The notes beneath the pieces were generated by a model. The model was not told the origin of the DNA, did not search any database, and saw only the letters and a list, made by a program, of their open reading frames with translations. Shown here one piece after another: positions 851-17,331 of a stretch of DNA of 21,883 nucleotides. The stretch spans positions 1 through 21,883 of the IMG/VR virus record IMGVR_UViG_3300030105_002979; one strand, written 5' to 3'. This DNA comes from a virus. Made by a program: the position numbers and the translations under genes. Position 1 is the stretch's first letter, and every line of letters starts with the position of its first letter.

Positions 851-3271
851 ATGGCAGAGTCTGGCATTAAAAGTTATTTCCCAAGTCAAACGGTTAGCGA
901 TGCCGAAAAGCTAAGCTATGAGTATGGGTTAAAAGTTGGTAAAGCTATAGAGCAAGAGTGGTTTAATAGCGATAGAGGCTCTAATAGGTATAAAACTAAT
1001 AGTAATGATTTTCACAATTTAAGATTGTACGCTCGAGGCGAGCAGTCTATTCAAAAGTATAAGGATGAGTTATCTATCAACGGTGATTTGTCCTATCTTA
1101 ATTTAGATTGGAAGCCTGTCCCTATTATTTCTAAGTTTGTCGACATAGTTGTTAACGGTATTGCCGAAAGAACTTACGATATAAAAGCTTACTCACAAGA
1201 TCCATTTGGTGTGGCTAAAAGAACTCAGTACATGGAGTCAATACTAGCAGATATGAGAGCTAAGGAGTTTAATGATTTTGCAATGAAAGCTTTTGAGGTG
1301 AATCTTTATGAGAATGACAAAGATTCTTTACCAGAAACAGAGGAAGAGTTAAAGCTCCATATGCAACTTACATACAAACAATCTATAGAGTTGGCGGAAG
1401 AACAGGCTTTAAATGTTTTAATGGAGGGAAATAATTACGAATTAATTAAAAAGCGTTTTTATTATGATTTAACCGTACTTGGTATTGGCGCTGTAAAAAC
1501 CAGCTTTAATACATCTGAGGGTGTTGTAATCGACTATGTAGATCCAGCCAACCTTGTGTATTCGTATACAGATTCTCCATATTTTGAGGATATATATTAC
1601 GTAGGTGAGGTTAAAACTATACCCGTAAATGAATTAGCCAAAGAGTTTCCGCATTTATCTGAGAGCGACTTAGAAGGTATAATGAAGAATAAGTCTAATA
1701 ATAGGTCTAATCACAACTCAAGACATAATTACGATAAAGAGGACACTAATACTATTCAAGTTCTTTACTTTAATTACAAGACCTATATGAACGAGGTTTA
1801 TAAAATGAAGGAAACAGCTAGTGGCGCTGATAAGATTATACCTAAAGACGATAACTTTAACCCACCTGAAGATAAAGAAGGTGGATATGGAAAAATGCTA
1901 AGGTCTATAGAATGCCTTTACGAGGGTGCTATGATTCTGGGTACTGATAAGTTACTTAAGTGGGAGTTGGCTAAAAACATGATGCGAGAAAAAAGTGATT
2001 TTACTAAAGTAAAAATGAACTACTCTATTGTTGCTCCTAGAATGTATGATGGTAGAATAGATTCTTTAGTTAAAAGGATAACTGGCTTTGCTGACATGAT
2101 TCAATTAACACATCTTAAGCTTCAGCAAGTAATGTCTAGATTAGTTCCAGATGGTATTTATTTAGATGCAGATGGTTTGGCTGAAATTGACTTGGGTAAC
2201 GGAACAAACTATAACCCACAAGAAGCCCTAAACATGTATTTCCAAACTGGATCTGTTATAGGTAGATCGTTTACTTCAGATGGTGATGTGAATCCAGGTA
2301 AAATACCTATTCAAGAGATTACATCTGGATCTGGTGGTAATAAAATGCAAGCTTTAATTGGTACGTACAACTACTATTTACAAATGATAAGGGATGTAAC
2401 TGGACTTAACGAAGCTAGAGATGGTAGTACTCCAGATAAAAATGCTTTAGTTGGTATACAAAAAATGGCAGCAGCAAATTCAAACACAGCCACTAGACAC
2501 ATACTACAAGCTGGGTTGTTTTTAACAGCAGAAACAGCTGGGTGTTTATCATTAAGGATTTCGGATATTATAGAGTATTCTCCAACAAAAGATGCTTTTA
2601 TACATCAGATAGGGGTTCACAATGTTGCTGCGCTAGAAGAAATATCAGAGCTACATCTTTATGATTTCGGTATATTTATTGATCTAATGCCGGATGACGA
2701 GGAGAAAGCTATTCTTGAAAACAACATTCAAATGGCCTTACAACAGCAAAGTATAGATTTAGAAGACGCTATTGACCTTAGAGACATAAAGAACGTAAAG
2801 CTTGCAAACCAACTTCTTAAAATACGTAGAAAAAAGAAAATGGATAAGGATCAAGCACTGCAAGAAAGGAATATGCAAATGCAAAGTCAAATGAATCAAC
2901 AAGCGGCTAAAGCAGCAGCTCAAGGTGAGGTTCAAAAAAACCAAGCACTAACAGCTAGTCAAGGGCAATTGGAGCAGTTAAAAGCTCAATTGGCTTCTCA
3001 AAAAATGGAGCAAGAGGTTGGGCACAAAAAACAGTTAATGCAATTAGAGTTCCAGATGAACATGCAGTTGAAAGGAATGGAAGTTAGTGGCAAAAGAGCA
3101 GGTGAAAAAGAAAAAGAAGATCGTAAAGACGAAAGAACAAAGATCCAAGCATCTCAACAAAGCGAGATGATTGACCAAAGAAATAGTGGTAAACCACCTA
3201 AAAACTTTGAGTCCGCGGGTAATGATATACTAGGTGGCGGATTTGATTTAGGTGCTTTTGACCCTAGGTAA
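851..3271 (+). CDS. Portal protein
   Basis: At 806 residues this is a large portal, the dodecameric ring at the head vertex through which DNA enters and leaves. The N-terminal region contains a segment at about residues 75-115 (DWKPVPIISKFVDIVVNG, then AERTYDI) that I associate with portals of Bacteroidetes phages. A second characteristic block, EARDGSTPDKNALVG, begins near residue 521. From about residue 617 to 770 the protein becomes helical, rich in Gln, Lys and Met, and looks like a long coiled-coil tail or barrel. The C-terminus ends in a short Gly/Asp/Phe peptide containing NFESAGNDI (785-793). A similar peptide occurs near the N-terminus of the next protein. The position directly after the terminase supports the call. 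The start at 851 has no Shine-Dalgarno; the leader reads AATAAAT. Confidence 0.85.
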   Translation: MAESGIKSYFPSQTVSDAEKLSYEYGLKVGKAIEQEWFNSDRGSNRYKTNSNDFHNLRLYARGEQSIQKYKDELSINGDLSYLNLDWKPVPIISKFVDIVVNGIAERTYDIKAYSQDPFGVAKRTQYMESILADMRAKEFNDFAMKAFEVNLYENDKDSLPETEEELKLHMQLTYKQSIELAEEQALNVLMEGNNYELIKKRFYYDLTVLGIGAVKTSFNTSEGVVIDYVDPANLVYSYTDSPYFEDIYYVGEVKTIPVNELAKEFPHLSESDLEGIMKNKSNNRSNHNSRHNYDKEDTNTIQVLYFNYKTYMNEVYKMKETASGADKIIPKDDNFNPPEDKEGGYGKMLRSIECLYEGAMILGTDKLLKWELAKNMMREKSDFTKVKMNYSIVAPRMYDGRIDSLVKRITGFADMIQLTHLKLQQVMSRLVPDGIYLDADGLAEIDLGNGTNYNPQEALNMYFQTGSVIGRSFTSDGDVNPGKIPIQEITSGSGGNKMQALIGTYNYYLQMIRDVTGLNEARDGSTPDKNALVGIQKMAAANSNTATRHILQAGLFLTAETAGCLSLRISDIIEYSPTKDAFIHQIGVHNVAALEEISELHLYDFGIFIDLMPDDEEKAILENNIQMALQQQSIDLEDAIDLRDIKNVKLANQLLKIRRKKKMDKDQALQERNMQMQSQMNQQAAKAAAQGEVQKNQALTASQGQLEQLKAQLASQKMEQEVGHKKQLMQLEFQMNMQLKGMEVSGKRAGEKEKEDRKDERTKIQASQQSEMIDQRNSGKPPKNFESAGNDILGGGFDLGAFDPR

Positions 3272-3298
3272 AATTATTAATTATTATTATATTATATT
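3272..3298 (+). promoter_or_regulatory. AT-only leader before the scaffold gene
   Basis: The gap between portal and scaffold consists solely of A and T, in TTA/TAT steps. Its last 14 bases plus ATGG form TATTATATTATATTATGG (3285-3302), which recurs exactly at 6001-6018 before another gene. A shared TATTAATT-like stretch lies further upstream in both. It could be a promoter, an unstructured translation-initiation leader, or both. I see no clear Bacteroidetes -7 box (TAnnTTTG). Confidence 0.35.
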
Positions 3299-4471
3299 AT
3301 GGAAGAAGAAAATGAAAAAGTAGTCGAAGAGATTACACAGGAAACAACTGAACAAGTTGATGAAAGTAAATTTGAATCCGCTGGAGATGACAGCATAATG
3401 AAAGTAGATTTAAGTAAACCCCCAATACCAAAAGAAGATGAAGTTAAAGAAAGTGACGCTGACGACAGCGGAGTGGTTGCAAGCGCTGAAGATGCCGAGC
3501 CCACACAAAAACAAGAAGAAGTACAACCGGAAGCACAAGCACAAGAAACTCCAGCGCTAGAGGAAGTAACCAAAGAAGAGGTTGAAGAGGTAGAAGAGCA
3601 AGTTGTAGAAGCTATAGCGCAAGCCGAGGCTACTGGAGAGGCTTTACCAGAAAATATACAAAAGCTAGTTGACTTTATGGGAGAGACTGGTGGTGATATA
3701 AATGACTACGTAAAGCTTAACCAAGACTACAGTGGGCTAGACGATTCTGATTTGTTACATGAATTCTACAAGCAAACAAAACCTCATTTAAACCAAGAAG
3801 AAATTAACTTCCTTATGGAAGATACATTCTCATTCGACGAAGATATGGACGACGATAGAGATATAAGAAGAAAAAAATTAGCGTTAAAAGAGCAAGTTGC
3901 AAGCGCTAAAAGCCACCTAGACGGGCAAAAGTCTAAATACTATGAAGAGATTAAGATGGGATCTAAGCTCACAACCGAGCAGCAGAAAGCAGTTAACTTC
4001 TTTGATAGGTACAACAAGGAATCAGAAGAGATTTCAAAAAGCAGTGAAAAAAATCGTAATAACTTTACACAAAAAACAAATAATGTTTTTAACGACAAAT
4101 TCAAAGGTTTTGAATACAACGTCGGTGATAAAAGCTATCGATTTAATGTTAAGGATGCGGATAAAGTTAAATCTGAACAAAGTGATATAAATCAATTCAT
4201 GACAAAGTTTGTCAATGAAGATTCCACTTTAAAAGATGCTAGCGGATATCACAAGGCATTATTTACAGCCAGCAACCCTGACGCGATTGCAAAGCACTTT
4301 TACGAACAAGGTAAAGCGGATGCTATGAAAGATAGTGTCTCTAAAGCCAAGAATGTAGATATGAACCCAAGACAAAGTCATGGGAAAATTGAAGCAGGTG
4401 GTACAACGTATAGAGTGTTAGGTAGTGATTCTTCTGGTTTTAAAATTAAAAATAATAAATTTAAAAATTAA
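3299..4471 (+). CDS. Capsid assembly scaffold-like protein
   Basis: This 390-residue protein sits between portal and major capsid protein, the usual place of the scaffold (or scaffold/protease) gene. Residues 1-110 are extremely rich in Glu, Asp, Gln and Ala and are probably disordered. The segment at about 120-220 holds a conserved-looking core (KLVDFMGETGGDINDYVKLN, then a helical part rich in charged residues). It resembles scaffold-region proteins I associate with Bacteroidetes phages. The C-terminal third is Lys-rich, giving the acidic-to-basic polarity common in scaffolds, whose basic end contacts the capsid protein. KFESAGDD at residues 24-31 matches the portal C-terminal peptide. I see no protease catalytic motif. 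The role is inferred from position and composition. Confidence 0.7.
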   Translation: MEEENEKVVEEITQETTEQVDESKFESAGDDSIMKVDLSKPPIPKEDEVKESDADDSGVVASAEDAEPTQKQEEVQPEAQAQETPALEEVTKEEVEEVEEQVVEAIAQAEATGEALPENIQKLVDFMGETGGDINDYVKLNQDYSGLDDSDLLHEFYKQTKPHLNQEEINFLMEDTFSFDEDMDDDRDIRRKKLALKEQVASAKSHLDGQKSKYYEEIKMGSKLTTEQQKAVNFFDRYNKESEEISKSSEKNRNNFTQKTNNVFNDKFKGFEYNVGDKSYRFNVKDADKVKSEQSDINQFMTKFVNEDSTLKDASGYHKALFTASNPDAIAKHFYEQGKADAMKDSVSKAKNVDMNPRQSHGKIEAGGTTYRVLGSDSSGFKIKNNKFKN

Positions 4472-4483
4472 AAAAACAAAATT

Positions 4484-5938
4484 ATGGCAATTACAGGAGG
4501 AGGCAGTTTACGCTCCACACCCGCACCAGTCCAAGCCGCGTTAGCGACTAATTTCTTAGACTTCGCAACAGGAGCTACGGATGACACAAACTGGGCACAA
4601 CAATTTTTACCAGATCTTATGGCTGCAGAGGCTGAGGTGTTCGGAAATAGAACAATCTCAGGATTTCTTGCACAAGTAGGAGCTGAAGAAGCAATGAGTT
4701 CTGACCAAGTAGTTTGGTCTGAGCAAGGTCGCTTACATTTATCGTACAACGGTGTGACATCATCAACTGGTGTAACATTTACCGTTGATTCTGACGTAGA
4801 CGGAAATGCTACAACTGATCACGGTATTAGAGTTGGTGATACGGTTATAGTATCTGACGCTAGTGCTAGTATCAAAGCATTTGTTAGTGCTGTTTCTGGC
4901 GCTGCATGTACTATTAATCCTTTTAATCATAATACAATGGTTGCTGGTGGTGTTGCTGATACAGCGGTAGCAGGAGCGGTTAATATATTAGTTTATGGTT
5001 CTGAATTTGGAAAGGGTACAGTTAACCAAACAACAGCTAATAAACCAAGTCATAAATCTTACTCTAATCAACCAATAATCATCAAAGACATGTACGAAGT
5101 TAATGGATCTGATGCTTCTCAAATTGGATGGGTTGAAGTTACTGGTGAAGACGGAGGCGCAAACGGTTACTTATGGTACTTGAAAGCTGAAGGTGAAACT
5201 AGAATGAGATTTACTGATTACTTAGAAATGGCTATGCTAGAAGCTGAAACTGCTGCTGCATCTGCAGGTACGAATGCTGCATCTATTACTCCTGCTGGAT
5301 CACTTGCTGGGGCAATTAAAGGTAGTGAAGGTTTATTTGCTGCTATTGCTGAAAGAGGTAATACAACTTCTGGCGTTACTGGCGTGAATGCTGCTACTGA
5401 TTTAGCTGAATTTGATGCTATCTTAGCTGAGTTTGATAGAAATGGAGCTATTGAAGAAAACATGATGTTTGTAAACAGAGCTACTTCGTTAGCAATGGAT
5501 GACATGTTAGCTTCTATGAATTCTTACGGAGCTGGTGGTACTTCTTACGGAGTATTTGACAATTCTGAAGATATGGCATTGAACTTAGGTTTCTCTGGTT
5601 TCAGAAGAGGTTCTTATGACTTCTACAAGTCTGACATGAAGTACTTAAACGATCAAGGCACAAGAGGTGGTATTAAAGATACTGTAAACAACATTAGAGG
5701 TGTTGTGATTCCTGCTGGAGTTTCTTCAGTATATGATCAACAATTAGGTAAAAACTTGAAAAGACCGTTCTTACACGTAAGATATAGAGCTTCTCAAACT
5801 GAGTCTAGAAAAATGAAAACTTGGATTACAGGTTCTGTTGGAGCTGTTACATCTGATTTAGACGCAATGACTGTTAATTACCTATCTGAAAGATGTTTAA
5901 TTACTCAAGGCGCTAACAATTTCATGTTAATGAAATAA
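4484..5938 (+). CDS. Major capsid protein
   Basis: This 484-residue protein is the main shell subunit, probably of the HK97 fold. Evidence is its place after the scaffold, its length, and an Ala/Gly-rich sequence with a long acidic helix. The stretch around residues 230-255 (YLWYLKAEGETRMRFTDYLE) and the C-terminal part after 330 look like Bacteroidetes-phage capsid proteins. Residues about 91-171 are rich in Thr, Val, Asp and Gly and look like an inserted beta-barrel domain, which would sit on the outer surface. The start at 4484 is preceded by AAAAAAACAAAATT and no Shine-Dalgarno. Codon use shifts strongly to GCT, TCT, ACT, TTA and AGA after about codon 200, as expected for a very highly expressed gene. 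A terminator-like hairpin follows the stop. Confidence 0.85.
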   Translation: MAITGGGSLRSTPAPVQAALATNFLDFATGATDDTNWAQQFLPDLMAAEAEVFGNRTISGFLAQVGAEEAMSSDQVVWSEQGRLHLSYNGVTSSTGVTFTVDSDVDGNATTDHGIRVGDTVIVSDASASIKAFVSAVSGAACTINPFNHNTMVAGGVADTAVAGAVNILVYGSEFGKGTVNQTTANKPSHKSYSNQPIIIKDMYEVNGSDASQIGWVEVTGEDGGANGYLWYLKAEGETRMRFTDYLEMAMLEAETAAASAGTNAASITPAGSLAGAIKGSEGLFAAIAERGNTTSGVTGVNAATDLAEFDAILAEFDRNGAIEENMMFVNRATSLAMDDMLASMNSYGAGGTSYGVFDNSEDMALNLGFSGFRRGSYDFYKSDMKYLNDQGTRGGIKDTVNNIRGVVIPAGVSSVYDQQLGKNLKRPFLHVRYRASQTESRKMKTWITGSVGAVTSDLDAMTVNYLSERCLITQGANNFMLMK

Positions 5939-9177: not shown

Positions 9178-12100
9178 ATGCCAGAGATTAAGAAGCAGTT
9201 TACCGGTGGTAAAATGAACAAGGATGTGGACGAAAGACTTGTTCCCAACGGGGAGTATAGAGATGCTATGAATATACAGGTTTCAACATCAGAAGGATCT
9301 GAAGTTGGTACTATACAAAATATACTTGGTAATCACAGTATTGATGGACAAACATTTATACCTTACAGCGCTACTTGCATTGGTAGTATTGCTGATGAAA
9401 AGAACGATGCTTTTTACTGGTTTACGACAACAGCTGAAGAAAGTGCAGTTGATGCTCTCGCCAGCTTTACCTCGGCCCAACAACAACCAATCCTAGGAGT
9501 TTCCCACATAATACAGCATAAAAACAATATCATAACACCAGTGTTTACTGATGTGTCTTATGCCATATACAGCATGTTTAATAGTTTGGGCCATCCCACT
9601 TACGATTTAGCAGGCCAAACGATTACAATAATTACACCAACAGTTCCTATAATTGTTGGTATGAGTCTCACTATCCAGGACTACGTTGGTCTTACCACGT
9701 CTATGCCAAACGTAGTGACGGGTGTACTTGAAGGCACTATGCTTGGTAGTGTTATTACATTTCAAGATCCACTAACTTTCTTGGACGATTTAATGCAGCC
9801 CTTTAGCATGCCATCTATGCTTGGCACTATTTTGTATTTTAATTCTAGTAGTACTTTTGGGAATACTGCGGGCGAAGTTCTTGGTTTTACAAAAAGCAAC
9901 TTAATTACAGGTATAAACATTATTGATGATTTATTACTTTGGACAGATGGATCAACAGAACCTAAAAAAATAAACATAACGCGTAGTATTGAAGGTACAG
10001 CTTCAACAGGCGATAAAAACACTCTACTGATAAATCATGATCAAGGTATATTTGATTCTAACGATATACTTGCACGGGAAAAACATATAACTGTTATTAA
10101 ACAGTCTCCAAAAAATGCTTTAATAGTTGAAAAACAAACTGTACCAGATTATGGGTATGTAGCTTTGCCTTCCTCTATGAATTTTTTAAAGGATGTGAAC
10201 GATCCTGCTTTGGGTAATCTTTCCGTTGGCGAATTAGTTGATAACCAAGCTATGGATGGGCTTTTTTTGGAACTAGACCCTACTGTGGCCAATCCAATGC
10301 TGGGGGACATATTACTTTTTAACCCGGTTATCGGTAATAATACACCCCCTGAAGAATACCAAGTAAAAGTGAAATTAACTCAGTCGTTAAATAACGGTAA
10401 TAATACGTTGTATAATTCATTTCTCACATTCGTAAATAGCTTTTTAGGTCCTCTTTTTAATTTCTACACTGCAGATAGTTTTCAAATCTGGAGAGCCGAG
10501 ATAGTTACTATTAGTTATGATACGCTGACCGTTTCTCAAGACTGGAATTGGGCGGTTCAACCCCCAGAACAAAAAACCTTTAAAAATAAGTTTCCTAGAT
10601 TTTCTTATAGATGGCGGTATCAAGACGGTGAATATTCTACCTTTGCGCCGTTTACCAATGTTGTTTTTGAACCAAAAAATGAGTTTAAATACGATGTTAA
10701 GGAAGCTTATAATTTAGCTATGGAAAACGTCATAACACAAGTAAAGCTCTCTGGTTATAATCAAAACTTACCCGAAGACGTTGTAAGTATAGACATACTA
10801 TATAAAGAATCAAACTCACCCGTAATATATGTAGTAGATACTATAAATGATGTGAATCCACTTTCAATAGTTAATAGTTTTGAAGTTACGCCTAATCAAT
10901 TAAAAGCAGCCTTACCAAGCAATCAGCTTCTTAGGGCTTGGGATAACGTTCCAAGAACAGCTTTAGCTCAAGAAGTTAGTGGTAGCAGGGTTATATATGG
11001 TAATTACTTGCAAAACTACAACCTTGAAGAAGAAATAGTGATAAAGGCTAACACTGTAGACAGAAGTATTTGTGATGTTAATTACGAGAAAAAATCTTTA
11101 AAGTCAATTAGAAACTATGCTTTAGGGGTTTCTTTTTTAGATAAATATGGTAGACAGTCCCCTGTATTTACCGACAAAGAAGGCAGCATAGACATACCAA
11201 TAATAGAAGCGCAAAAGCAGAATCAACTAACAGCTAGAGTATCAAAGGGTACGCCTGGTTGGGCAACTCACCAAAAGTTTTTTATAAAAGATATTTCTAA
11301 TGAGTATTATAACTTAGCCATGGATAGGTTTTATGATGCAAGGGATGGTAATATCTGGTTGAGCTTTCCGTCTTCTGAAAGAAACAAAATTGATGACGAG
11401 ACGTTTTTAATATTAAAAAAAGGTGTTGAAGGAGATGTTCCTGTTGTTGAGTCAAATAAGTACAAGATTTTAGCTATAGAAAACGAAGCACCTCCTTTTA
11501 TAAAAAGGCGAGTTATTCCCATATCACTGGCTAGGGAGACTGACATAGATCCATTTGGAAATGGTACACCCAGTGTATTCGTGGATTCCACTGGCTATCC
11601 AACGGTTGGTAGTCAGAAAATCCTAATAGACAAACTTTACTGGGATGCTGTAGCATCACCTTTAGTTGACGCAAGCAGTGTAGCTTTATTTGAAGAAATT
11701 GAATTGAAATTTTCGATTGCAGTGGGTGCAAGTGGAGCTAGTCAGTCCTCTAAACCTTACAAAGTGAGTGCTATGAGTGTTGATGTCGCTTCAGGTGATT
11801 ATGTTTTTATGTTACAAGATAGTATATCAGATGATGATTCATGGCTTTCGAATTCTACTAACACACAACCTGAAGATACTATTGCTGTAGAGATAAGTCG
11901 CGTGGTCGTCAAAGATAGTCCAGAGTTTCAAGGTAGGTTTTTTGTTAAAGTAGCTAAAGATCCAATTGTAAACCAAAACATAATTGGTCAAGCAATAAAT
12001 AGCTTAGATACAGAAGAAAGAACTATATCAACTTTACCGTTTCATTATCTAGCAGATCAGGATGGTTCGTCAGGCCACGACACAACTTCTACTAAACACC

Positions 12101-15100
12101 AAGAATCTTCGACTGACACGTTTGGGAATTGGAATGCGGTTCTTTCTCCGTCAGCAACAAGTTCAACGCCTGAGGGCTTTTGGTTTATTGACGCGGCTTA
12201 TTACCATGGTACGTATGATCCGGTCATGTACGGCACATGTGTAGGTGCTTTTACCCCTTCGTATTGGCAAGCTATCAACATCCCAGCTGCAGCTCCTCCT
12301 TCAAATGATCCGGCAATGTATGGTGCTGCTATAACAACATCTGGCTTTAATAAAGGCATAGAGCCCGACGGTAATGGTGGAGCGTATATTTACTTAAGTT
12401 ACAGTAATTTACAAAACGCAGAAAGTAGTGGGTCTCTCCACACTTCTAGTGCGGACACCGACGCTATTTGGGAATGTGGAAATGCCGTAAGTAATTTAGC
12501 TCCAGGACCTCAGGAAGAGGCATTATATGAACACGGAATACAAGAATTAGGCCCTTGGGATTGTGGAAACACACAGCATTGGACACTTGGACAGCCGACC
12601 ATAAACTCTAACCACGCGACTGTAAAACAACAAAATCAGTTTTTTCAAGACTCTCGACTCATGTTTGCTGGGGGAGATGAGATCTATACTATCATTAGCC
12701 CGTATGAAAAAATTTACCATGTTAATTACACTGGTTTCCAGGAATCCGATGATTTGTATACAATAGCACATGAAGACCAACTGTTCAATGGATTTACGAC
12801 TATAACTTACTGGGAGGCTTTTTTTGACGAGATGTACTTTTTTGGAAGTCCTAATAATAGAAGGATAACATATAAAATACACCTTGACAAAGACCCTACT
12901 GATGCGCAGTATGGATTTAACCCAGTGGATCCAGCTACTGGAGCCACCGCAACTGAACTTGGTTATATATTCTTTATAGAAGAAGATTACGTGAATGTAG
13001 AAGATCAAGTTGTTAGTGAATTTCCAGCTATATGGGAAACAGAACCCAAGAAAGATGTTGATTTGGATATATACCGTGAAATAGATAGTACTTATCCTCT
13101 TGAAATAAATAATGATACAAATTATACTTTTGCACCTAAGGGTAGCACCATATCACTTAGTAAGTTTGGTAATCCCCTTCCGCCTTCAAACTTTATAAAC
13201 CCGTTTAACGCGGTTGTTCAAGCGTGGGTAGGGAATAAAGTTATACTTTCCAACCCTATTCAATTAGATGAATATTATTATAGCGACACGGCTAACATGC
13301 TAATAACGTTTCACAGGCCTGACGGTAGTTGTGTTAGTTCTACAATAGATGGCTGGGACGACGATGATTTAAGCGCGGTTGTTGGTTATCCTACTTGGCC
13401 AAGTGGCGAATTTTTGCCTACAAATATTGTTATTAATAAAAACGTTTCTAAGCAAACCGTTTCTTTATCTTGGTTTAATTGTTATTCTTTTGGAAACGGC
13501 GTAGAGTCACAAAGGATTAGAGATGATTATAATCAAATAACTATAGACAAAGGAGTCAAAGCCTCTTCGACGCTAAACGAACTGTATAAAGAAGAGCATA
13601 GAAAATACGGTTTAATATACTCTGGATTGTACAATTCAACTACTGGCGTAAATAATTTGAATCAGTTTATTGCGGCTGAGAAAATCACTAAAGATATAAA
13701 TCCTACTTACGGTAGTATACAAAAACTATACTCAAGATCTTCCGCGGATGGTGATTTAATAGCTTTGTGTGAAGATAGGATTTTAAAAATATTAGCAAAT
13801 AAAGACGCGGTGTTTAATGCTGATGGAAATCCACAATTAATAGCTACGGAAAATGTTCTAGGCCAAGCTATGCCTTACTCTGGGGAGTATGGTATATCTA
13901 AAAATCCAGAATCATTTGCATCGGAAAACTACAGGGTTTATTTTACGGATAAAGTTAGGGGAACGGTTATGAGGTTGTCTAAAGACGGATTGACGCCAAT
14001 ATCAAGTCACGGAATGAAAGACTGGTTTAGAGATAATTTAAAATTATCAACTAAACTAATAGGAAGTCATGATGATAGAAATAACGAATATAATATAAAC
14101 CTTAATTCCACTGTTTTAATGCCAACACTAGGCCAAACAGTTTCTTTTAGAGAAGATGTAAGGGGTTGGGTTAGTTTTAAATCTTTTATTCCAGAAAATG
14201 GTGTTAGCTGTGCGAATGATTATTATACGTTTCAGTATGGCAAGGCTTTTATGCATAACTCATCCACGCAGTTAAGAAACACTTTTTATAATGCGGGTGT
14301 TGATTCTAGCTTTACAGTTATTTTAAATGATGTTCCAGGAAGTATTAAATCTTTTGATACCATCAACTATGAGGGAAGTCAAGCTAGAATAACTGAGTTC
14401 ACGGGCGCCATCTTTAATAATGCTGTTGTTAATGACGGGCAGTACCACAACCTAAGCTCTGTACCGGGATGGTACGTTGATAACGTTAAAACAGATCAAG
14501 AAATTGGGGGTATTAATGAGTTTATAGAAAAAGAAGGAAAGTGGTTTAGCTATATGAAGGGTGTTGAAATAGCGCATTACGAAGGTGAACTCAACGGCCT
14601 CCCAGCGCAAAGGCCAACAATAAATCCTGATGGCAGTTCTACATTTGATCAGGCTAGCTTTGCAGTACAGGGGCTAGGTGTATTAGGTGGGACTCCGATC
14701 ATTAATTTAACAGGGGATTGTACAGATCCAACAGCTAGTAATTATAATCCAAATGCTGATTGGGATGATGGAAGTTGTATTCCATTTGTGTACGGATGTA
14801 TGGCGCTTTCTGCTTTTAATACTAGCGAACCACTGGCAAATACAGAGGATGGAAGTTGCAATTGGTATGGGTGTATTGATCCTGGTGGTGATATGTTACC
14901 TTCATCTGTTACTGCTTTTGGGGCAGAAGCGTTAAATTATGAGAATCAATATCCAGGAGCTATTCTAGATGACGGAAGTTGTATTCTTATTGTTTATGGT
15001 TGTTTAGATCCTTTGAATTCTAATTATAATCCTGATGCAAATATGAATGCGGAAGGAGGTAGCGCTGAAGCTTGTATTCCTATTGTATGGGGTTGTTTGG

Positions 15101-17331
15101 AGGAGGAAGGTGTTAATTATTACGCAGGAGCTGCATATGATAATGGTCTGTGTTCGATGCCTGGGTGTGTTCTTTATCCTAACGCCAGTAACTATCAATA
15201 TAGTACTGTAACTGGTGCACTATTCTCTAGCAGCGCTCTCAACTATGTTGTTTTTGACCCATTGGACCCTACTGCTGGAGTTTATGATGATGGATCTTGT
15301 ATAATACCGGGATGTACTGATTTCGGTGGTTTAACTGAGACAGAATGGATTGCACTGGGTTATCCAACGGCTAATACCACACAAGTGTACACGGGTAATC
15401 CAGCGGGAAATTACAGCTCTAACGCCACTACTGACAATGGCTCTTGCTTATACTGTTCTGATACTACTGCTAATAATGATGATGCTAGTGGTGGCTCGTC
15501 TAACATGACTGAGGGTTGTCAGTACTGTATGCTTGAAGGCTGGGCTCAATATTCTATTTCGGGAAATATTACTACTGGTGAACTTACCATAGTTGTTACG
15601 GCGGAAAATGGTTTAGGTAATATACCTCAGCCAGCCCTTGTCGATAGTATAGCGTTTACAATTACTGATTACACTACTTATCCAGCTGGATTTCCGCTTT
15701 TACTAGGCTTTGATCAACAAGACGTGGAGTATGACCCTACAACATTCACTTGGACTGTAGTGATACCTTCACTTGATCTTTATAACCCTATTAATATTAA
15801 TGTGATTGGAGAGTGTAGTAATACTGATAGTCAAACATTAAGTTTTACAACTACAGCTTTTGGAGTTCCAACACCTGGTTGTACTGAGTTGTATGCCTGT
15901 AATTTTAATATTAGTGCAACTTCTGATGATGGAACATGTGAATACTATTCGTGTAGTGGTTGTACAGATCCTTTGGCGATTTCTTCATCTTACAATAAAC
16001 AAAACACGGGCCCAAACGCAGGGCTGCCGTGTGTGGGTGCAACAGGATGTACTACAGCATGTGGTAATGGAATAATTGCTGGGGCCGGTGTTCCACCTGA
16101 TGGTTGTTGTGATTATGATATAATGGGTTGTATGGATGTTAATTATGATAATTATAATCCGCTAGCTACAGTTAGTGATGGTTCATGTATTATGTATGTT
16201 TATGGCTGTACTAACCAAGCATATACCCAATATGATCCATTAGCAAATGTTGATGATGGTAGTTGCGCTACACTTATTGACTACGGTTGTATTGATGATA
16301 GAGCGTGTAATTACCTATACAATCAAAATGGCATTCATATACCAACAATGGATCATGATTGTACTATGACTCAAAACGGTACAGTACACACCTGTTGCGC
16401 GTATGGATTTGATGATGTCTATGTTGGAGGAACAGCCGGCCAGTCGGGCTCAATACCATACGAATCTACTGGAGCTACATTGGCTAGTGATTTAGAACTA
16501 GAAAGAACCAAACACTATATAGATGGAAATTCTTTCCCTCCCGATATTAATATTGGCTTAAGTTTTGACCATTCACTTGGAAATTCTCTAATTGATCAAT
16601 TTTGGGCAAATATGTGGGAGAGAAACGACGATGACACCGGTTGGGATTGGATAGCGCAATATGTTAGAGTAAACGCAGGATCATATCTTACTAATAGTGG
16701 TGGGACATGGAATGACGCTCCTTTTAAAGAAGGAAGTAACACCTTTCAGTGGACAAACACCGCGGCAGATGATACGGACACAGATAACTATGACCACAAG
16801 CCCTATAACGCTATCGGTGGCATAAGAAAATACTTGGTAAGAATGGGTCAGAAGGTTAACGGTATTTCGTATGGGTATACTGTACTCCCTACCTATGGTA
16901 GTACTAACATACCGGGTTGTGGAGTCTCACTAGTATTTAATTTTGAACCGACTGGCTGCATGACACCTGATATATTTGGTGGGGCGCACGCGAATCCAAT
17001 ACTAGGTTGTTTAGATTTTGATGCGTGTAACAATGACTGTGCAGTAGATGCTAATGGAAATGCAACAGCACCCAGCACTGGTACAAATTGTGGAGATCAA
17101 GTTACTTGCCATGATCAAAACCTATGTACAATGCCACCTGATACCGCAACTTGTGTTACAACTACGACTAATCAGGGACAAACACACACTTGCGTGGCTG
17201 ATGCTTGCTTTATAGTTTCACCAGGACCTTATGTGGGGACTTTAATCTCCTCAGCTGTTTCTATATGTCAAAACACCGCTTTAGATCCATCAGATGGTTA
17301 TGCAAATAAATGCAATCTTGCTACCCAATAA
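9178..17331 (+). CDS. Giant tail nozzle-like protein with Cys-rich repeat C-terminus
   Basis: The 2717-residue product is the largest in the window. It opens with KQFTGGKMNKDVDERLVPNG and then EYRDAMNIQVSTSEGSEVGT, a start I associate with large tail proteins of marine phages whose beta-propeller part corresponds in role to P22 gp10 or T7 gp12. Similar elements recur: DGSTEPKKINITRS near 252, a YRWRYQDGEYSTFAPF block near 475, and LDKYGRQSPVF near 654. A block at about 1475-1630 (YGLIYSGLYNSTTGVNNLNQ onward) closes this part. Residues about 955-1160 look like an inserted, Gly/Ser/Trp-rich domain. From 1846 the character changes to tandem Cys/Asp repeats (10 recognisable units to 2363) with inserted beta domains, then further Cys-rich segments to the end. 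A fusion of tail nozzle and surface-exposed, possibly receptor-binding region is inferred. The start at 9178 is 3 bases after the upstream stop. Confidence 0.65.
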   Translation: MPEIKKQFTGGKMNKDVDERLVPNGEYRDAMNIQVSTSEGSEVGTIQNILGNHSIDGQTFIPYSATCIGSIADEKNDAFYWFTTTAEESAVDALASFTSAQQQPILGVSHIIQHKNNIITPVFTDVSYAIYSMFNSLGHPTYDLAGQTITIITPTVPIIVGMSLTIQDYVGLTTSMPNVVTGVLEGTMLGSVITFQDPLTFLDDLMQPFSMPSMLGTILYFNSSSTFGNTAGEVLGFTKSNLITGINIIDDLLLWTDGSTEPKKINITRSIEGTASTGDKNTLLINHDQGIFDSNDILAREKHITVIKQSPKNALIVEKQTVPDYGYVALPSSMNFLKDVNDPALGNLSVGELVDNQAMDGLFLELDPTVANPMLGDILLFNPVIGNNTPPEEYQVKVKLTQSLNNGNNTLYNSFLTFVNSFLGPLFNFYTADSFQIWRAEIVTISYDTLTVSQDWNWAVQPPEQKTFKNKFPRFSYRWRYQDGEYSTFAPFTNVVFEPKNEFKYDVKEAYNLAMENVITQVKLSGYNQNLPEDVVSIDILYKESNSPVIYVVDTINDVNPLSIVNSFEVTPNQLKAALPSNQLLRAWDNVPRTALAQEVSGSRVIYGNYLQNYNLEEEIVIKANTVDRSICDVNYEKKSLKSIRNYALGVSFLDKYGRQSPVFTDKEGSIDIPIIEAQKQNQLTARVSKGTPGWATHQKFFIKDISNEYYNLAMDRFYDARDGNIWLSFPSSERNKIDDETFLILKKGVEGDVPVVESNKYKILAIENEAPPFIKRRVIPISLARETDIDPFGNGTPSVFVDSTGYPTVGSQKILIDKLYWDAVASPLVDASSVALFEEIELKFSIAVGASGASQSSKPYKVSAMSVDVASGDYVFMLQDSISDDDSWLSNSTNTQPEDTIAVEISRVVVKDSPEFQGRFFVKVAKDPIVNQNIIGQAINSLDTEERTISTLPFHYLADQDGSSGHDTTSTKHQESSTDTFGNWNAVLSPSATSSTPEGFWFIDAAYYHGTYDPVMYGTCVGAFTPSYWQAINIPAAAPPSNDPAMYGAAITTSGFNKGIEPDGNGGAYIYLSYSNLQNAESSGSLHTSSADTDAIWECGNAVSNLAPGPQEEALYEHGIQELGPWDCGNTQHWTLGQPTINSNHATVKQQNQFFQDSRLMFAGGDEIYTIISPYEKIYHVNYTGFQESDDLYTIAHEDQLFNGFTTITYWEAFFDEMYFFGSPNNRRITYKIHLDKDPTDAQYGFNPVDPATGATATELGYIFFIEEDYVNVEDQVVSEFPAIWETEPKKDVDLDIYREIDSTYPLEINNDTNYTFAPKGSTISLSKFGNPLPPSNFINPFNAVVQAWVGNKVILSNPIQLDEYYYSDTANMLITFHRPDGSCVSSTIDGWDDDDLSAVVGYPTWPSGEFLPTNIVINKNVSKQTVSLSWFNCYSFGNGVESQRIRDDYNQITIDKGVKASSTLNELYKEEHRKYGLIYSGLYNSTTGVNNLNQFIAAEKITKDINPTYGSIQKLYSRSSADGDLIALCEDRILKILANKDAVFNADGNPQLIATENVLGQAMPYSGEYGISKNPESFASENYRVYFTDKVRGTVMRLSKDGLTPISSHGMKDWFRDNLKLSTKLIGSHDDRNNEYNINLNSTVLMPTLGQTVSFREDVRGWVSFKSFIPENGVSCANDYYTFQYGKAFMHNSSTQLRNTFYNAGVDSSFTVILNDVPGSIKSFDTINYEGSQARITEFTGAIFNNAVVNDGQYHNLSSVPGWYVDNVKTDQEIGGINEFIEKEGKWFSYMKGVEIAHYEGELNGLPAQRPTINPDGSSTFDQASFAVQGLGVLGGTPIINLTGDCTDPTASNYNPNADWDDGSCIPFVYGCMALSAFNTSEPLANTEDGSCNWYGCIDPGGDMLPSSVTAFGAEALNYENQYPGAILDDGSCILIVYGCLDPLNSNYNPDANMNAEGGSAEACIPIVWGCLEEEGVNYYAGAAYDNGLCSMPGCVLYPNASNYQYSTVTGALFSSSALNYVVFDPLDPTAGVYDDGSCIIPGCTDFGGLTETEWIALGYPTANTTQVYTGNPAGNYSSNATTDNGSCLYCSDTTANNDDASGGSSNMTEGCQYCMLEGWAQYSISGNITTGELTIVVTAENGLGNIPQPALVDSIAFTITDYTTYPAGFPLLLGFDQQDVEYDPTTFTWTVVIPSLDLYNPININVIGECSNTDSQTLSFTTTAFGVPTPGCTELYACNFNISATSDDGTCEYYSCSGCTDPLAISSSYNKQNTGPNAGLPCVGATGCTTACGNGIIAGAGVPPDGCCDYDIMGCMDVNYDNYNPLATVSDGSCIMYVYGCTNQAYTQYDPLANVDDGSCATLIDYGCIDDRACNYLYNQNGIHIPTMDHDCTMTQNGTVHTCCAYGFDDVYVGGTAGQSGSIPYESTGATLASDLELERTKHYIDGNSFPPDINIGLSFDHSLGNSLIDQFWANMWERNDDDTGWDWIAQYVRVNAGSYLTNSGGTWNDAPFKEGSNTFQWTNTAADDTDTDNYDHKPYNAIGGIRKYLVRMGQKVNGISYGYTVLPTYGSTNIPGCGVSLVFNFEPTGCMTPDIFGGAHANPILGCLDFDACNNDCAVDANGNATAPSTGTNCGDQVTCHDQNLCTMPPDTATCVTTTTNQGQTHTCVADACFIVSPGPYVGTLISSAVSICQNTALDPSDGYANKCNLATQ
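14713..16266 (+). repeat. Tandem coding repeats ending in DDGSC
   Basis: Ten units share the pattern GC-x-D/P-(x)-NYNP-x-A-x-x-DDGSC; the first reads GDCTDPTASNYNPNADWDDG, then SC. Each ends in a Gly-x-Cys-type pentapeptide. The unit-final Cys codons are at about 14776, 14857, 14980, 15073, 15151, 15298, 15445, 15937, 16186 and 16264. Units vary from about 22 to 50 residues because of insertions. A larger insert between units 7 and 8 (about 15530-15875) looks like an Ig/Fn3-type beta domain. The Asp/Asn spacing recalls calcium-binding loops, and the paired Cys suggest disulfides. Similar repeats are known in secreted proteins of flavobacteria. Degenerate units continue to about 17310. Confidence 0.85.

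Follow-up and report, generated by a model that had tools for sequence, protein, structure and literature searches.

A near-invariant portal tail and a variable peptide resembling it in the adjoining scaffold-like protein of a virus record

Introduction

The virus record IMGVR_UViG_3300030105_002979, whose 21,883 bases were analysed as a whole (hereafter the window), comes from a phage of flavobacterial type and encodes a portal protein of 806 residues and, in the next gene, a protein of 390 residues that is referred to here as scaffold-like. Both contain the peptide FESAG, in the portal within NFESAGNDI (residues 785-793) and in the scaffold-like protein within KFESAGDDS (residues 24-32). The solid result of this analysis is that the portal copy is part of a C-terminal tail that is near-invariant among the relatives sampled and predicted to be disordered, a location of the docking-motif type. 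The scaffold copy is missing from most of the same relatives. We favour, with moderate confidence and over all alternatives considered, a conserved docking tail on the portal and an independent, swappable element of the scaffold-like protein that resembles it.

The shared peptide had been picked out in an original prediction, which suggested that it could be a binding motif common to both proteins, a processing site or the trace of a local duplication. A direct reading of the sequence confirmed the peptides and their coordinates, and the two FESAG copies do lie 165 bases apart, with DNA that is alike over 23 bases in the best local alignment. NFESAGNDI is not the end of the portal, as had been supposed; 13 further residues follow it, up to ...LGGGFDLGAFDPR. 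Overall, the observation is true and its interpretation is partly supported.

Conserved C-terminal tail of the portal protein

The portal gene (851..3271, + strand, as are the scaffold-like and capsid genes and the segments given for them) belongs to the family phrog_6547, with a match that spans residues 6-791 (E 1.3e-149). AlphaFold2 was run on 48-row alignments of the portal (A1) and of the scaffold-like protein (A2). The portal model (mean predicted local distance difference test score, pLDDT, 69.6) has long helices in residues 649-779 (H649-707 and H711-779; 2795..3187), and its best Protein Data Bank (PDB) matches in Foldseek are the phicrAss001 portal chains (7qoi/7qog), at an E value of about 1e-20. 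It therefore has the fold of a portal with C-terminal helices, as a model of a single chain and not of the oligomeric barrel itself. Beyond the helices pLDDT is under 50 (residues 779-806), and the disordered, conserved tail, as judged from pLDDT, alignment and tail pattern, comprises residues 780-806 and the stop codon (3188..3271), with FESAG at residues 786-790 (3206..3220).

Relatives were taken from the best 80 matches of each of four portal-query scans of IMG/VR, and all proportions below refer to this sample. With eight annotated phage regions and the window, 313 loci were obtained. Counts were made after discarding loci whose portal repeated another's last 400 residues or was truncated at the end of a contig, which left 267 distinct complete portals. 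These comprise a close group A (122, window included), the distant groups B (75) and C (62), and the eight annotated portals, which were counted apart.

F-E-S is present at the portal tail in 122/122 (A), 75/75 (B) and 57/62 (C) cases, or 254 of the 259 distinct sampled portals, and the five exceptions (L210, L223, L224, L225 and L241) are all in group C. The conserved tail reads FES..(N/E)D..L.GFDL..F.P(R/K). A longer pattern, consisting of FES, F.(L/M/F) and a proline that adjoins the stop or lies one residue off it, is found in 116/122, 73/75 and 53/62 portals respectively (242/259 in total). Residues F786, E787, S788, F803 and P805 are invariant in the 48 aligned portals. Within the close group F, E, S, G, N and D are present in 122/122 portals and the A varies (92), and the distant portals carry the form FES(N/T)ED.

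This part of the original prediction is supported: the portal half of the motif sits in a near-invariant tail, predicted to be disordered, where a docking motif might be expected. In the literature searched, which excluded most subscription journals, no mention of this tail was seen and the word FESAG appears in no paper; among the papers listed for motifs of portals and scaffolds or for sequences that target the capsid, none dealt with it, judged by title or the start of the abstract. From FES to the stop this near-invariant, predicted-disordered tail measures about 19-23 residues; in a phage group that is widespread, it would offer a handle on how the portal finds its partner inside the head.

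Variable peptide in the scaffold-like protein

The scaffold-like protein (3299..4471) lies between the portal and capsid genes, and from this position it is presumed to act as a scaffold. It matched no PHROG or Pfam family. Its model (mean pLDDT 64.1) is mostly helical in residues 92-351 and has pLDDT under 50 in residues 1-91 and 353-390, which places both FESAG copies in segments that AlphaFold2 leaves disordered. No fold match was found in the PDB at E 0.001, and in BFVD four viral proteins were matched at this threshold, all unnamed or uncharacterised, one of them from Cellulophaga phage phi18:3. Thus, neither homology nor a fold match to a known scaffold was found in PHROG, Pfam, the PDB or BFVD.

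FESAG occupies residues 25-29 (3371..3385), just upstream of KVDLSKP (residues 35-41; 3401..3421). The open reading frames (ORFs) that follow the portal were compared in 117 (A), 66 (B) and 57 (C) loci, 240 in all. Strict FESAG was found in their first 120 residues in 35/117 (A), 0/66 (B) and 0/57 (C), or 35/240 overall, where the group C ORFs include inserted non-homologues (e.g., L176, L203, L212 and L214) that the 0/57 takes in. The relaxed form F(E/D/N/K/M/G)SA(G/D/N/E/S) was found over the same residues in 57 (A), 0 (B) and 0 (C) ORFs, and by alignment 62 of the 117 close rows have an F.S form in the slot. The expectation that the motif would be kept in both proteins of relatives was thus contradicted, with strict FESAG missing from the scaffold-like protein in 82/117 close relatives and from all 123 distant ORFs. 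The shared half of the binding-motif proposal fails because most scaffold-like proteins lack strict FESAG while nearly all portals keep FES.

What the scaffold-like protein does keep is KVDL.KP, within (D/N).V.KVDL.KP, just downstream of the slot; among 117 aligned rows K35 is conserved in 105, V36 in 110, L38 in 115 and P41 in 108. Many rows of the distant groups start with M(E)(I/F/L)KV(R/K) or a variant in place of (D/N).V.KVDL.KP. When FES is absent, the slot is often filled by a second KVDL copy, as with KVDLKK and, further on, EDDNVIKVDL; KKPNINEDGDYVV is another example of its content. A single KVxL copy is present in 35/62 FES-bearing rows, and two or three in 43/55 rows without FES; in 7 of these 55, F recurs ahead of a KVDL-like motif.

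A processing site would here be a common cleavage site at which a head-maturation protease cuts both portal and scaffold. This suits two head-assembly proteins that carry the motif in flexible segments. However, a six-frame motif scan found no FESAG in the capsid protein that the window encodes, most relatives are without the scaffold copy, and a Peptidase_S78 prohead protease was found in 0/19 records, with a control that was positive in 4 genomes. A Peptidase_S77 search also gave 0/19 records, but its control was silent and the result is uninformative, and other protease types were not searched. We consider cleavage at this peptide highly improbable.

Chance level of the resemblance

Two exact 5-mers are common to the portal and the scaffold-like protein, FESAG and IRRKK. 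Shuffled portal/scaffold pairs had one or more 5-mers in common in 27% of trials and at least two in 5%. Across the 13 ORFs compared, 27 pairwise common 5-mers were counted against a shuffled mean of 15.4. Furthermore, the best ungapped segment between the two proteins lies elsewhere, in a Q/K-rich stretch (score 52, the FESAG segment scoring 32). Judged over both full proteins, the exact match is ordinary and not remarkable alone; exact 5-mer sharing was rejected as evidence, given that shuffled proteins often produce it.

Narrower comparisons gave lower P values, all uncorrected and for a pair that was picked because it had already been seen. When the comparison was confined post hoc to the 40 C-terminal residues of the portal and the 60 N-terminal residues of the scaffold-like protein, P was 0.0007 for an exact 5-mer and 0.013 for the segment score. 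In hhalign, the portal-tail profile compared with scaffold N-termini gave P 1.3e-4 when these were limited to FES-bearing rows and 0.0069 for the full set of 117, and the reversed alignment gave P 0.039. The portal-tail profile was supplied with 122 rows, of which the program filter retained 29, and the similarity is confined to 8 or 9 columns. At the DNA level a FESAG-like pattern was matched in 28 of 43 records scanned and a tighter pattern in 14 of 21; two matches noticed outside the portal and scaffold genes (in G032, and in G013 at 9766) read FEWAG and FERAG. The resemblance between portal and scaffold peptides is somewhat beyond chance.

Selection, codons and trees

The ratio of nonsynonymous to synonymous differences (pN/pS) was determined for 31 pairs from 67 rows, chosen by their left flank irrespective of F and S and compared by a shift-tolerant identity. 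It was 0.46 for FESAG, 0.44 for residues 1-13 and 0.48 for residues 14-19, as against 0.26 in the KVDL region and 1.27 over residues 43-62; FESAG alone therefore behaves like its flanks in this set. Lower values from an earlier set (0.285 for FESAG and 0.15 for KFESAGDD) are biased, since its rows were chosen by having F and S, and its ungapped portal identity misjudged some pairs (values down to 0.08). In the 62 FES-bearing scaffolds F and S are fixed by definition, and A is found in 58, E in 52 and G in 42, so that within the close group the pattern of constraint differs between the portal and scaffold copies.

A recent local duplication finds no support, as the two copies show no excess of common synonymous codons: codon identity was 2.16/5 against 2.41 expected at the 25 loci with FESAG in both genes. 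An old duplication that carried the DNA encoding the portal tail into the beginning of the adjacent gene would be consistent with copies that lie so close together and are similar at the DNA level, and with a shared form specific to the close group. The same codon comparison argues against it, as do the narrow span of the profile similarity and the intermediate scaffold forms KFESKDDN, KFKSKDDD and KLDSANDD, which suggest point-wise change. We regard an old duplication as improbable, though less so than a cleavage site.

On a 117-row portal tree, which had very long outgroup branches, the FES state of the scaffold-like protein required at least 19 changes, 12 of them forced by supported branches. 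Trees of 85 rows without outgroups required 15 changes for the portal and 14 for the scaffold core (7 forced). For the 52 rows with all three genes, 9 changes were needed on the portal tree, 8 on the scaffold-core tree and 17 on the capsid-protein tree, where shuffled states averaged about 17.5. The state is thus clustered on the portal and scaffold-core trees and random on the capsid-protein tree, which indicates that FES is inherited with the portal-scaffold segment rather than with the capsid protein. This suggests a mosaic break, or frequent exchange, near the scaffold-capsid boundary. Portal FESAG, as opposed to other forms, does not track the presence of the scaffold motif, in a weak test with about five informative pairs (median sign-test p 0.625).

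Interpretation

In the favoured reading, helices 649-779 of the portal would form a helical barrel facing the capsid interior, a position proposed by analogy with the P22 and crAss001 portals, and the FES tail would hang from its inner end and project into the head. There it may act in docking with some partner within the procapsid or head; an internal protein, or the scaffold, could be tethered in this way. The scaffold FESAG would be a separate, optional element of an acidic disordered N-terminus, set in the slot before (D/N).V.KVDL.KP, swapped in many relatives for a second KVDL copy or unrelated residues, and moving with the mosaic inheritance of its gene. KVDL.KP would then be the scaffold-like protein's own conserved handle, and the likeness of the two peptides would be mainly coincidence and biased composition, not a shared essential contact or recent copying. 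The evidence behind this reading is the conservation, predicted disorder, distribution and codon comparison given above; the docking role, the location inside the head and the identity of the scaffold are inferred.

Several results weigh against a resemblance that arose independently. None of 300 column shuffles reached the hhalign profile score with either scaffold set, and FESAG was noticed in no third gene in the DNA-pattern scan of 43 records. The scaffold form (AG, then N/D-D) matches the portal form of its own close group and not the FES(N/T)ED of distant portals. Where the left flank is common, pN/pS of the six positions F, E, S, A, D and D is 0.23, close to that of the KVDL region. The co-variation test is also too weak to exclude a link between portal and scaffold. 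The profile match, the lack of a third gene and the agreement in form together make plain coincidence uncomfortable, and pure coincidence strained.

The shuffles, the lack of a third gene, the six constrained positions and the disorder around both peptides would all fit optional mimicry, in which the scaffold N-terminus of a subset of phages copies the core of the portal tail and both bind the same pocket inside the procapsid. Candidate partners would be the capsid protein, an internal protein or a folded region of the scaffold, and such binding would help to position the portal as assembly begins; the scaffold FES would be dispensable because KVDL repeats serve the same job elsewhere. However, 55/117 close rows have no F.S form and the 123 distant ORFs have neither the strict nor the relaxed form, with the portal tail retained. 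The residue constraints of the two copies differ, and the random distribution of the scaffold form on the capsid-protein tree argues against tuning to capsid type. A binding motif that is shared only optionally, and in a subset of phages, is the next most likely reading, though clearly behind the independent resemblance we favour. A more specific form of it, that in some marine flavobacterial-type podoviruses the scaffold mimic competes or alternates with the portal tail for one pocket and is swapped with a KVDL repeat, is slightly more doubtful still. If the scaffold peptide were a true mimic, it would make a simple model in which to ask how each capsid comes to contain exactly one portal.

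Neighbouring genes

The window begins with the end of a large terminase gene, followed by the portal gene, the scaffold-like gene, the probable major capsid protein gene (4484..5938; phrog_13704 'virion structural protein', E 2.1e-104) and other virion genes. The order portal, scaffold-like protein, capsid is common to the window and the annotated relatives, with inserted genes in Pachyviridae. Further downstream, a 2717-residue protein (9178-17331) has a run of Cys-containing repeats in residues ~1847-2363, many of which finish with (D/E/S)(D/N)G(S/T)C, with a count of nine for endings of this kind.

Comparison with known systems

The portals of Elemovirus, Maribacter phage Panino, Callevirus and Pachyviridae are homologous to the window portal along most of their length. 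As in the window, the FES tail is kept in the portals of elemoD, Panino and the uncultured ctfjg026, whereas phi38:1 and Calle_1 (FRS), phi46:3 and phi13:2 (FSK) and Gundel_1 (neither) are without it. None of the eight annotated records has FESAG in the first 130 residues of the presumed scaffold counterpart, the choice of counterpart in Gundel_1 being doubtful; those of elemoD, phi38:1 and Calle_1 are annotated 'structural protein'. In Panino, elemoD, phi38:1, Calle_1, phi46:3 and phi13:2 (L084-L089) a gene annotated as co-chaperonin GroES precedes the large terminase gene, either immediately or at a distance of one gene.

Among portals of known structure, that of crAss001 (gp20) shares the fold of the window portal and ranks first by Foldseek, with the P22 portal (gp1) further down, and long C-terminal helices are common to all three. 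In crAss001 these helices form a C-terminal barrel that extends about 80 Å towards the capsid core (PMC10172136). The crAss001 portal closes with a stretch rich in lysine and has no FES tail like that of the window portal. In the P22 procapsid the portal barrel is unstructured, the scaffold complex touches the wing of the portal, and the barrel region is surrounded by an inner dome that probably consists of ejection proteins (PMC12005531).

The hypothetical protein gp31 of crAss001 (19102-20271 in L316) has no sequence similarity to the scaffold-like protein (BLAST E 7.4), and no FES element was seen in it. It nevertheless occupies the same place, directly upstream of the capsid gene gp32, and with 389 residues and an acidic N-terminus is similar to the scaffold-like protein of the window in both length and character.

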